Virus record (IMG/VR): IMGVR_UViG_3300028786_000014
Coordinates: 1-45,993 of that record
Source: a virus
Strand: one strand, 5' to 3'
DNA length: 45,993 nucleotides
Both the position numbers and the translations under genes were made by a program. Numbering within the stretch: position 1 is the first letter of the stretch; each line of letters opens with the position of its first letter. The notes beneath the pieces were generated by a model. The model saw only the letters and a program-made list of their open reading frames with translations. It made no database searches and was not told where the DNA came from. Below are positions 9,530 through 45,993 of the stretch, piece by piece.

Positions 9530-9966
9530 GATACAGAACCCCAAGTTCTGAGATGTGGCGAAGCGGGAAGAGGAAGTGCTCGGCCTGCAAAGAGTACCAG
9601 AGCCCTGAATCTTACGGCTCCAACAAGGATAGCAAGGATGGACTTTCTTACAGCTGCCGCGACTGTGCGGCAGACAACCAACGAAGAATCAAGTATGGTA
9701 TAACCTCCGCGCAGTACAACAAGATGTTGGCCGATCAGGGTGGAAGGTGTGCAGTCTGTGGCTCACTTGGATGTCAGAGCGGCAAGAAGTTGGCGGTTGA
9801 CCACGATCATGGGTGCTGCCCAGGGAAAAAGTCTTGCGGCCAGTGCATAAGGAAACTTCTATGTCAGAAGTGCAACCAGGCTCTTGGCCTGTTTGGAGAC
9901 GACCCGGATCTGCTACGCAAGGCAGCGGGCTACATTGAGGAGAACAATGACTATCAAGGGCATTGA
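9526..9966 (+). CDS. HNH endonuclease, endonuclease VII-like
   Basis: 146 residues. CSACKEY/CRDC zinc knuckles, then CAVCG, LAVDHDHG, and LLCQKCNQALGLFGDD, the layout of the T4 endonuclease VII-like HNH family. Free-standing HNH genes of this type are usually homing endonucleases. Start ATG overlaps the terminase stop (ATGA). It intrudes between terminase and lysin and overlaps the lysin start by 20 bases. Two relatives lie at 26254-26655 and 38008-38421. Confidence 0.85.
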   Translation: MRYRTPSSEMWRSGKRKCSACKEYQSPESYGSNKDSKDGLSYSCRDCAADNQRRIKYGITSAQYNKMLADQGGRCAVCGSLGCQSGKKLAVDHDHGCCPGKKSCGQCIRKLLCQKCNQALGLFGDDPDLLRKAAGYIEENNDYQGH

Positions 9967-23593: not shown

Positions 23594-23668
23594 TGCGCGG
23601 TGATGAAACAGGGATCATGCCAGGCTCATATCCTGGTCTTGCGGGTTCGAATCCCGTCTGCGCCACCA
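23594..23668 (+). tRNA. tRNA-Met or tRNA-Ile2 (CAT)
   Basis: Anticodon loop CTCATAT on CCAGG/CCTGG. Acceptor TGCGCGG/CTGCGCC has a T-C mismatch at pair 1, as initiators do, but the anticodon stem lacks the three G-C pairs of an initiator. CAT could also be lysidine-modified to read ATA. CCA is encoded. Confidence 0.85.
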
Positions 23669-24885: not shown

Positions 24886-24963
24886 GGGTCTGTAAGGTTT
24901 CGATCGGAGGGAAAGCCGCACGCGGAACCCTTCGGGACGCGGGTTCGATTCCCGCCAGATCCA
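24886..24963 (+). tRNA. tRNA-like gene, class II shape, isotype unclear
   Basis: Acceptor GGGTCTG/CAGATCC, T arm GCGGG-TTCGATT-CCCGC and a variable arm CCC-TTC-GGG are well formed. The D and anticodon arms between them do not fold cleanly; AGGGAAA could be a Ser (GGA) loop, but position 33 would be G and the stem is weak. May be degenerate. Confidence 0.5.
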
Positions 24964-24968
24964 CACGA

Positions 24969-26108: not shown

Positions 26109-26165
26109 AGACAAGAAAGTCTTGTCGCAGTCCGCTAGCAACTTCGTTGCGTAGCTAAGCCCTCT

Positions 26166-26185
26166 CCTAGTGAGGACTAGGTATG
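26166..26185 (+). promoter_or_regulatory. Hairpin presenting the capsid-gene ribosome site
   Basis: CCTAGT-GAGG-ACTAGG folds with the Shine-Dalgarno core GAGG exposed as the loop, six bases before an ATG at 26183. That ATG opens a short frame identical at first to the sequence just ahead of the capsid gene. Two more hairpins, GACAAGA-AAG-TCTTGTC at 26110-26126 and GCAAC-TTC-GTTGC at about 26139-26151, precede it. Confidence 0.6.
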
Positions 26186-26224
26186 GCTAACGCCTTTACA
26201 CCCGTCCTTTCGAAGACTAGTTAA
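26183..26224 (+). other. Orphan 5' end of the major capsid gene
   Basis: ATG GCT AAC GCC TTT AC starts an open frame of 13 codons (MANAFTPVLSKTS) that then stops. The same GCTAACGCCTTTAC occurs at 26655-26668, there in frame with the capsid protein. The natural capsid start therefore seems to be here, cut from the rest of the gene by the HNH gene. Frame across the insert is not kept (469 bases between repeats). Confidence 0.65.
26186..26199 (+). repeat. Direct repeat flanking the HNH insert, left copy
   Basis: GCTAACGCCTTTAC, 14 bases, identical to the copy at the other side of the HNH gene. Confidence 0.9.
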
Positions 26225-26253
26225 CACTTCCCGAAAGGACGTGAGACCAAGGA

Positions 26254-26655
26254 GTGAAACGCTGCAATAGGTGCGGCATCGAGAAGCCCGTGGAAGGCTT
26301 CTATCGGAATAGTAGATCCAGCGATGGACTACAGGGCTACTGTAAGCAGTGTGATAAAATCAGGCGTGAAACACCTGAACGCATGGAAGCTAAAAAACAT
26401 AGCGCATGGTTGGGCCAGCTTAAAAAGTATGGCATAACCGAATCCGAATACAATCAGATGTTCTCTGACCAGATGGGACTTTGTCGTATCTGTCAGAAGC
26501 CAGAAGTTGACATCAGGCTAGCAGTTGATCACGATCACGAGACCGGCAAGGTCCGTGGACTGCTGTGCAAGAGATGCAATATGGCTATTGGTCTGCTTGA
26601 CGATGACCCACAGATCGTGACTAGCGCAGCCCTATACCTCCGAGGCAACAAATAG
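26254..26655 (+). CDS. HNH endonuclease inserted in the capsid gene
   Basis: 133 residues. CNRCGIEKPVEGFY and CKQC knuckles, CRIC, LAVDHDHETGKVRGLLCKRCNMAIGLLDDDP: endonuclease VII-like HNH, the same family as the genes at 9526 and 38421. GTG is the only possible start after an in-frame stop; the AAGGA just before it is too close to be ideal. The stop codon TAG overlaps the right direct repeat. Probable homing endonuclease that has invaded a conserved site in the capsid gene. Confidence 0.85.
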   Translation: MKRCNRCGIEKPVEGFYRNSRSSDGLQGYCKQCDKIRRETPERMEAKKHSAWLGQLKKYGITESEYNQMFSDQMGLCRICQKPEVDIRLAVDHDHETGKVRGLLCKRCNMAIGLLDDDPQIVTSAALYLRGNK

Positions 26656-26668
26656 CTAACGCCTTTAC
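26655..26668 (+). repeat. Direct repeat flanking the HNH insert, right copy
   Basis: GCTAACGCCTTTAC begins with the last base of the HNH stop codon and continues in frame into the capsid protein (ANAFTGTAAMSNLV). Confidence 0.9.
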
Positions 26669-26681
26669 CGGTACCGCTGCA

Positions 26682-27620
26682 ATGTCGAACCTCGTCCAGA
26701 CCGCCTATGACAGGGCGCTGGAGTTCGCACTGCGTGCGCAGCCGACTTTCCGTAACATCGTAGACAAGAAGCCAGTGGCCCAGGCAATGCCTGGATCTAG
26801 CGTTGTCTTCGAGCTTTACCAGGATCTAGCACAGCAGATCACTCCGCTCAACGAGCTGGTTGATCCCGATGCCGTGGCTGCTGGACAGCCGACCACCGTT
26901 ACGGTTACTCTGAACGAGTACGGTAACGCGATCCTCGTGTCTAACAAGCTTGATCTGTTCAGCTTCACCGACGTGACCGCAGGTCTCGTCAACCAGGTGG
27001 CGTGGAACCTGATCGACTCTATCGACCTTATCGTACAGAACGTTCTACAGGCAGGAACTCAGGTCATCCGTCAGAACGGTGACCCAGCTACTGTCAACCC
27101 AACGTACAACGGTGGTACCACTGCTGGTGTAACGACTGCTTCTATCTACAGTTCCAAGGCTATCCGCCTTGCAGTAGCAAAGCTTCGCTTCCAGAAGGTC
27201 CACCCTAACAAGGGTTCGTACTACACCACGTACATCTCTCCCGAGGTCTCCATGGATCTCCGTGCCGAGACTGGTAACGCAGCTTGGCGTCCACCGCACG
27301 AGTACTCTTCTGCCGGTAACATCTGGGCAGGAGAGATCGGTGAGTACGAGGGTTCTGTATTCATCGAGACCCCTCGCGTGAACTACGCACTGACCGGTGC
27401 TGGTGCTGCGGTTAACGTCTTCCAGACCTACACCGTAGGTCAGCAGGCGCTAGCCGAGGCTGTTGCCGAGGAGTTCCACACCGTTCGTGGACCAGTTGTA
27501 GATAAGCTTACCCGCTTCCAGCCTCTTGGTTGGTACGGCGTAGCAGGATGGTCTCTGTACCGTCCCGAGTCTCTGATCCGCACCGAGACTACTGCTTCCA
27601 TCCACACCACTGGAGCGTAA
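26682..27620 (+). CDS. Major capsid protein, N4-gp56-like; 5' end interrupted
   Basis: 312 residues from the first in-frame ATG. The pattern YTVGQQALAEAVAEEFHTVRG and FQPLGWYGVAGWSLYRPE near the end is that of the N4-gp56 capsid family with an HK97-type fold. No Shine-Dalgarno precedes this ATG, and the frame is open upstream through ANAFTGTAA, which matches the orphan start at 26183. So either translation restarts here after the HNH gene, or RNA splicing or ribosome bypassing joins the two parts. Confidence 0.88.
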   Translation: MSNLVQTAYDRALEFALRAQPTFRNIVDKKPVAQAMPGSSVVFELYQDLAQQITPLNELVDPDAVAAGQPTTVTVTLNEYGNAILVSNKLDLFSFTDVTAGLVNQVAWNLIDSIDLIVQNVLQAGTQVIRQNGDPATVNPTYNGGTTAGVTTASIYSSKAIRLAVAKLRFQKVHPNKGSYYTTYISPEVSMDLRAETGNAAWRPPHEYSSAGNIWAGEIGEYEGSVFIETPRVNYALTGAGAAVNVFQTYTVGQQALAEAVAEEFHTVRGPVVDKLTRFQPLGWYGVAGWSLYRPESLIRTETTASIHTTGA

Positions 27621-38007: not shown

Positions 38008-38421
38008 CTAGGTGTCGGGCCTTACCTTGCCGATCGCCTTGTATGCGGGTGGATCTACTAGGTAGTCAGCGATCCTATACGCGAAGTCAGGATCGTCCCT
38101 GAGGTGACCTAGCAGCTTGTTGCACGTGGTACAAAGCAGACCTCGTACGTATCCTGTCGCGTGATCGTGATCGACAGACAGCTTTTTGGATACGCCCTTA
38201 GCTCTCCGACACAACCAGCACACGCCGCCCTGAGCGGCGTACAGCTCGTCGTACTGTCCAGCCTTAAGTCCGTACGTCTGCTGTACCATACGTTCGTGAG
38301 AAGCCCGTTTGCGGGCTGCCTTGATGGCATTGTTGTGGGTAGCGCATCTAGGTCCAGGATGTGGGGCCGGGCGTTTAGAGCCCGGCCCACAATCCTTACA
38401 CCTTTTACTTGCCCTTGCCAC
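38008..38421 (-). CDS. HNH endonuclease, endonuclease VII-like
   Basis: CKDCG, CWLCRRAKG, LSVDHDHATGYVRGLLCTTCNKLLGHLRDDP: same family as the genes at 9526 and 26254. GTG start inside the end of the Cys-rich micro-gene; an alternative GTG lies at 38451. Likely a homing endonuclease lodged among replication genes. Confidence 0.85.
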   Translation of the reverse strand: MARASKRCKDCGPGSKRPAPHPGPRCATHNNAIKAARKRASHERMVQQTYGLKAGQYDELYAAQGGVCWLCRRAKGVSKKLSVDHDHATGYVRGLLCTTCNKLLGHLRDDPDFAYRIADYLVDPPAYKAIGKVRPDT

Positions 38422-45859: not shown

Positions 45860-45985
45860 AAGCACGTCCCTGAGGACGTGCGTCAGGCTACCACATCAGA
45901 GGTTGGCCTCGATGAAGTCGATAACCGGCTGGAAGGTTTCGACCTCGTCGTTCAGGTTCGCGAGCTTGATCATGTCTTCATCAGT
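45860..45985. repeat. Right copy of 126-bp terminal direct repeat
   Basis: Identical to 1-126. The eight bases after it (TACTGATG) do not match base 127 onward; they are the reverse complement of CATCAGTA at 120-127, so the contig end folds back on itself for a few bases. Confidence 0.9.
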
Positions 45986-45993
45986 TACTGATG
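45896..45993 (-). CDS. Duplicate 3' end of paralog A (partial)
   Basis: The same stop and last codons as the gene at 37-426, present again only because the contig end repeats. Not a separate gene. Confidence 0.85.
   Translation of the reverse strand, partial: SVTDEDMIKLANLNDEVETFQPVIDFIEANL

Follow-up and report, generated by a model that had tools for sequence, protein, structure and literature searches.

The DNA examined here, an IMG/VR virus record of 45,993 nucleotides referred to below as the window, lies near Streptomyces phages of the subfamily Beephvirinae. A long terminal direct repeat, apparently not fully identical (positions 1-134 and 45860-45993), suggests a near-complete genome. 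A tRNA array is followed by the gene preceding the capsid gene, which is named scaffolding protein in two relatives, and then by the capsid gene, whose product matched PHROG 1357, major head protein (9.4e-87); no second capsid copy was found in the window. Between tRNA-His and tRNA-Arg of the array, an 81-nt stretch of the plus strand (24886-24966) matched the Rfam tmRNA family RF00023 with 58 bits in its tRNA-like part only and was not called by ARAGORN.

All features of the capsid locus are on the plus strand. The 14-mer GCTAACGCCTTTAC occurs exactly at 26186-26199 and again at 26655-26668, with no third copy in the window. Base shuffles produced an exact 14-mer repeat within 26150-26750 in only 3 of 5000 cases, and the repeat is therefore not due to chance. 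The first copy is preceded by GAGGACTAGGT-ATG, a ribosome site with a start codon at 26183 that opens the short reading frame MANAFTPVLSKTS ending at TAA 26222-26224; this region (26172-26224) aligns with the intact capsid start of relative L014, TTAGGACTAGGCATGGCTAACGCCTTTACC. The second copy is in frame with the capsid protein and forms capsid codons 2-6 (Ala-Asn-Ala-Phe-Thr). The offset of 469 nt is not a multiple of three (469 mod 3 = 1). Between the copies lies an HNH gene of the Endonuclease VII type (26254-26655, 133 aa, GTG start), whose protein matched Pfam PF02945 Endonuclease_7 (E 2.9e-24) and PHROG endonuclease VII (5.9e-41). This arrangement had been recognized in the preliminary description, and each of its elements was confirmed. 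Two features had been missed. The second copy follows an ATA where the first follows ATG, which makes the repeat 17 nt long with one mismatch in the start codon, and the HNH stop codon TAG (26653-26655) overlaps this ATA in the sequence ATAG (26652-26655). GAGG at 26642-26645, in the 3' end of the HNH gene and 6 nt 5' of the ATA, is a candidate Shine-Dalgarno (SD) sequence. With ATA as codon 1, the proposed capsid gene spans 26652-27620 and has the predicted mature N-terminus ANAFTGTAAMSNLV.

To define the normal capsid start, capsid N-termini of named phages and of IMG/VR records were compared, 107 distinct ones in all. GCNAAYGCNTTYAC follows codon 1 in every one of them, as demanded by the search pattern. 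Codon 1 itself was ATG in 66 cases, GTG in 27, TTG in 2, ATA in 6, ATC in 3, ACG in 2 and GTA in 1. In 95 of the 107, ATG, GTG or TTG is followed by GCNAACGCNTTYAC, stands behind a ribosome site and is free of an HNH gene. Moreover, 29 named Streptomyces phage records match the window DNA, and the ten that were examined all have a GTG start and no HNH gene. Judged from these N-termini the normal capsid start is MANAF and not MSNLV; relatives starting at MSNLV, which would have spoken against the preliminary description, were not seen, and its view that the HNH gene displaced the MANAF terminus, so that expression of the capsid must be unusual, holds. When IMG/VR was scanned for this N-terminus with a first codon ending in a base other than G, 13 contigs emerged, each of which belongs to a lineage already collected. 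By parsimony on the capsid tree, non-canonical codons arose about nine times (five changes to ATA, two to ATC and one to ACG, plus the single GTA row).

The distribution of the HNH gene was determined by tblastn with four HNH proteins against the 700 nt upstream of every capsid start. It was present in exactly five lineages, namely the window, L044, L073, L099 and, as a remnant, L028. Among the capsid loci collected, the window protein is 47-63% identical to its intact relatives at this site, and the intact proteins are mutually 47-75% identical, which indicates an old family. All five insertions occupy the same nucleotide, a site that is empty in the 95 canonical-start loci. Common to the intact inserts are GGAYGTGAGACC on the left side, represented in the window by GGACGTGAGACC (26237-26248) and in L044, L073 and L099 by its counterpart GGATGTGAGACC, and [A/G]TA at the right. 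In the remnant (L028:664-775) two gene ends are joined in frame to a 36-codon reading frame, the TAG of which still overlaps the capsid ATA. The stop/start overlap [A/G]TAG was thus found in 5/5 HNH lineages. Codon 1 is ATA or GTA in all five, and none of the 95 canonical loci carries the HNH gene (Fisher p = 7e-6 for the association with an NTA codon, over distinct loci and with kinship ignored).

In a capsid tree from which the first 12 codons had been excluded, each of the five HNH lineages had a branch of its own, mostly beside HNH-free relatives with canonical starts. Because of these positions the invasions were probably independent, and the same nucleotide would have been hit five times or more. 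The Endonuclease VII/HNH domain and the sporadic occurrence at a fixed site that is empty in close relatives are what one would expect of a free-standing homing gene, and we infer that this putative homing endonuclease spread by homing. Two further Endonuclease-VII-like sequences are present in the window, at 9571-9945 on the plus strand and 38059-38280 on the minus strand (the identity with the HNH at the capsid site is 36% and 43%, respectively). The 5' end of the HNH gene also contains a perfect 6-bp inverted repeat, GAAGYC-N7-GRCTTC (26281-26300), which retains 6/6 pairs in all five capsid-site HNH genes and at most 5/6 in 65 others; in the window it shows a double change, C-G for T-A. As a significant RNA hairpin it was rejected, since its folding was no better than that of shuffled sequences.

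The reading that we favour, with a probability of about 0.7 on the sequence evidence, is that the HNH gene displaced the capsid start and that translation begins at the near-cognate ATA at 26652-26654. In this reading, a free-standing HNH gene of the Endonuclease VII type has invaded the junction of ribosome site and capsid codon 2, and its 3' end has swapped the capsid start codon for ATA, or for GTA in one lineage. The HNH stop codon TAG is completed by the G of the capsid Ala2 codon (GCN), creating the four-base stop/start overlap [A/G]UAG, of the ATGA kind. Because this overlap has to end in G, no stop other than UAG fits and codon 1 becomes NUA, a constraint that follows from the genetic code and fits all five HNH lineages. 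Ribosomes terminating at this UAG, or recruited by the GAGG or AAGGG that lies six nt upstream of codon 1 within HNH codons for LRG or LKG, would restart on AUA or GUA with initiator tRNA and produce (M)ANAFTG.... In the window, an AUA start would give the virion capsid N-terminus ANAFTGTAAMSNLVQ. Both the initiation at AUA and its coupling to termination of HNH translation are inferred from this arrangement. (Re)initiation, one of three mechanisms offered in the preliminary description, is thereby the best supported of them, at ATA 26652 rather than at ATG 26682 as suggested there.

The upstream copy in the window (ATG plus 14 nt) is best read as a relic of the recipient's own start left by the insertion, because in L014, the nearest relative, the native leader and start align with it. 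The relic would now encode only a 13-residue leader peptide. The insertion would have joined 14 nt inside the capsid gene, and the 14-bp duplication may mark a break within the first capsid codons, at the HNH cut site, followed by one-sided repair. No second capsid start was found upstream in L028, L044, L073 and L099. The repeat, which the preliminary description had made the central feature, is absent from four of the five HNH lineages and is accordingly a one-off relic rather than the mechanism.

Several observations bear on where capsid translation starts. No ATG, GTG or TTG lies in the capsid frame of the window between the upstream stop TAG 26622 and ATA 26652, and none of the HNH lineages has an in-frame ATG, GTG, TTG or CTG between the upstream stop and codon 1. 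This stop lies directly before the ATA in L099, as it does in the HNH-free L103; the remaining HNH lineages have it 10-14 codons ahead of codon 1. A canonical in-frame start is thus missing at the conserved position, and the capsid must start at codon 1 or at the ATG of codon 11, unless ribosomes bypass the insert. A start at codon 11 (26682-26684 in the window, MSNLV...) would involve either reinitiation, some 27 nt beyond the HNH stop, or SD-independent initiation, with the first ten codons left as untranslated remains. It requires no unusual start codon, and an ATG is present at codon 11 in all odd-start loci and most others; several canonical-start relatives, however, have Leu there. The amino acids of codons 2-10 are also kept in the odd-start lineages: ten of these, each compared with its nearest canonical relative, summed to 47 synonymous and 2 non-synonymous codon differences in this segment, and L099 and L103, both with ATA, differ by 4 synonymous and 0 non-synonymous codons. 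Against an AUA start, most of these substitutions could be older than the loss of ATG in the respective branch.

Anti-SD pairing was calculated as well and averaged -6.2 kcal/mol at codon 1 of the odd-start loci versus -2.7 at codon 11. In the window, GAGG before the ATA reached -5.9 kcal/mol; ATG 26682 formed only a weak duplex of -3.1 kcal/mol, in line with the earlier remark that it lacks an SD sequence. The candidate SD sequences of L044, L073 and L099 (GAAGGGC or CAAGGGC) ranged from -4.0 to -4.9 kcal/mol. The internal SD of the L028 remnant is weak (-1.7 kcal/mol), which argues against an AUA start, as does the fact that AUA is normally an inefficient start codon and the capsid protein the most abundant protein of the virion. 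The local fold predicted for the window, L073 and L099 hides the candidate SD in a small stem; that HNH translation would open it is suggestive only. In Corndog, a phage with a comparable HNH junction, the detected peptide begins directly behind the near-cognate codon (PMC4351075). On balance, a capsid start at codon 11 is unlikely, but it is the chief rival of an AUA start.

Ribosome bypassing, also considered in the preliminary description, would start at ATG 26183, take off within GCTAACGCCTTT, skip 469 nt and land on the matching codons at 26655. Take-off and landing sequences are indeed identical in the window. Matched sites are not kept among the homologues, and bypassing is conceivable in the window only, because the take-off copy is missing from the four sister lineages, which share the HNH junction. 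Furthermore, the upstream copy needs no additional function, as it aligns with the native start of relatives, and the gap is nearly ten times that of T4 gene 60, where 50 nt are bypassed. We regard bypassing as very improbable here, even though it was left open for the Corndog tape measure gene (PMC4351075).

Removal of the insert from the mRNA as a group I or other intron, the third mechanism of the preliminary description, has even less in its favour. Introns do occur in capsid genes of actinobacteriophages, as demonstrated by RT-PCR for LittleE (PMC3706429), and in L234 Rfam recognizes a group I intron within the same capsid gene. The search that detected the L234 intron found no covariance-model core here: with E values up to 1 admitted, Rfam matched nothing in the window insert, and the inserts of L028, L044, L073 and L099 gave no match either. 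In addition, 402 of the 469 nt are HNH coding sequence, the four sister lineages lack an upstream start for a first exon, and the Corndog parallel shows no splicing. An assembly artefact or a defective genome is the least credible reading: the window insertion, including the upstream copy, is known from one contig, but the junction type recurs in five lineages, the L044 and L073 types each in several contigs and thus not as assembly errors, and neither the capsid nor the HNH frame is otherwise disrupted. Two recoding events were discarded. Read-through of the UAG cannot make capsid because the two frames differ, and a -1 frameshift at the HNH end would involve poor re-pairing (AAA to CAA or AGG to AAG) and is blocked in L099, where the capsid frame has a TAA immediately ahead of codon 1.

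Intron-like inserts in the capsid gene of other loci continue the reading frame of the preceding exon with YALAA and a stop codon, which corresponds to the C-terminus of the ssrA/tmRNA degradation tag. They are located at L234:5100-5381 and L234:5640-5960 and, on the minus strand, near L201 position 5900, L230 position 2901 and L239 position 2603. Their codings (TAC GCA CTC GCC GCG TAA, TAC GCG CTT GCA GCG TAA and TAC GCC CTA GCG GCG TGA) differ synonymously and occur at two different insertion sites; among all loci collected, [YLFV]ALAA before a stop was found only these five times. The second insert of L234 is the Rfam group I intron, and the first insert type gave no Rfam match. When the exon frame is continued into the introns of LittleE and BAKA, which RT-PCR has proven, it ends in ...ATAAA and ...LAAAAA before the stop. 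Possibly, the YALAA inserts are introns by which the protein made from unspliced mRNA is marked for ClpXP; no report of introns appending an ssrA-like tag was found in the literature searched.

An odd codon 1 is not confined to loci with an HNH gene. Seven distinct loci have one without HNH, and HNH coupling is therefore not required for it. One of them, L103, has ATA and is a sister to L099, which has ATA plus HNH; L103 looks like a deletion scar of an HNH insertion because its TTAGATAGC resembles the last bases of the L099 HNH gene, TTAAATAGC. In L070, L234, L268, L032 and L038/L040, ATA, ATC or ACG lies 9-10 nt behind an SD sequence. L070, L234 and L268 have a GTG in frame three codons upstream, which might be used as start instead; L103, L032 and L038/L040 have no such alternative. 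The 12-mer TGATCTTACGGC is common to capsid and tape-measure ACG starts (L038:2986-3002, L040, and L300, the phage Firecracker, near 1416), and TGATC can extend anti-SD pairing.

We tentatively suggest, as a possibility that goes well beyond the window, that these phages initiate at AUA, GUA, AUC and ACG efficiently enough for a major capsid protein, so that an HNH parasite can use the capsid start as landing site and stop-codon donor, and that the near-cognate codon persists as a scar after loss of the parasite (L103, perhaps L070 and L268). Such starts may be helped by an infection-induced relaxation of start-codon proofreading or by a phage initiator-like tRNA(CAU), which could raise the initiator supply. 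By eye, a tRNA(CAU) at 23594-23668 on the plus strand of the window seems to lack a Watson-Crick 1:72 pair, like initiator tRNAs, and the same apparently applies to L013, L014, L032, L099 and L107.

The closest known counterpart is the tape measure gene (tmp) of the Cluster O mycobacteriophages Corndog, Firecracker and YungJamal. There, too, an HNH gene is inserted at the start of a structural gene, no canonical start is left and a near-cognate codon, ACG, replaces ATG; the most N-terminal peptide, AIHIDIYAHLQK, begins right after the ACG, RT-PCR revealed no splicing, and the authors left an ACG start or bypassing open (PMC4351075). A first residue of Ala fits better with removal of the initiator Met than with bypassing. 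In the Firecracker junction (L300), GGGGTGATCTTACGGCA, the HNH stop TGA lies four nt before the ACG and, unlike in the window, does not overlap the start. The Corndog type is further restricted to one phage cluster, whereas the capsid site appears to have received at least five separate insertions, all with NTA. Free-standing HNH genes of T4-like phages such as mobE resemble the present case in their intergenic position beside an essential gene, their overlapping start and stop codons suggestive of coupling, and their spread by homing; in mobE, however, the endonuclease start overlaps the upstream stop (UAAUGA, with a canonical AUG), and here it is the downstream essential gene that lost its start (PMC2988022). 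In the genes-in-pieces nrdA of Aeh1 and gene 60/mobA of T4, an essential gene likewise stays functional after HNH insertion, but the protein is split into two chains, whereas here at most the start codon is replaced (PMC2988022). Finally, the AUA or AUU starts of S. aureus infC, ccpN and cvfC1 also stand behind an SD sequence; AUA with an extended SD works at about 10-30% of AUG, and these codons keep expression low, in contrast to the major virion protein produced here (PMC13009471). A search of the literature on homing endonucleases and major capsid proteins found no report of an HNH gene at a capsid start. The mechanism thus has one experimental parallel, and the recurrence in the capsid gene and the forced NTA/TAG overlap are new as far as we could find.

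Near-cognate starts are generally regarded as rare and weak. In these phages the most strongly expressed virion gene appears to use them repeatedly, and the cause would be a homing gene that consumes the start codon. This would generalize the open puzzle of the Corndog tmp gene. It is also a warning for annotation, as gene finders will place such capsid starts ten codons too late. Because a single gene family offers empty, occupied, remnant and scar alleles, the survival of start-codon loss in an essential gene becomes testable.
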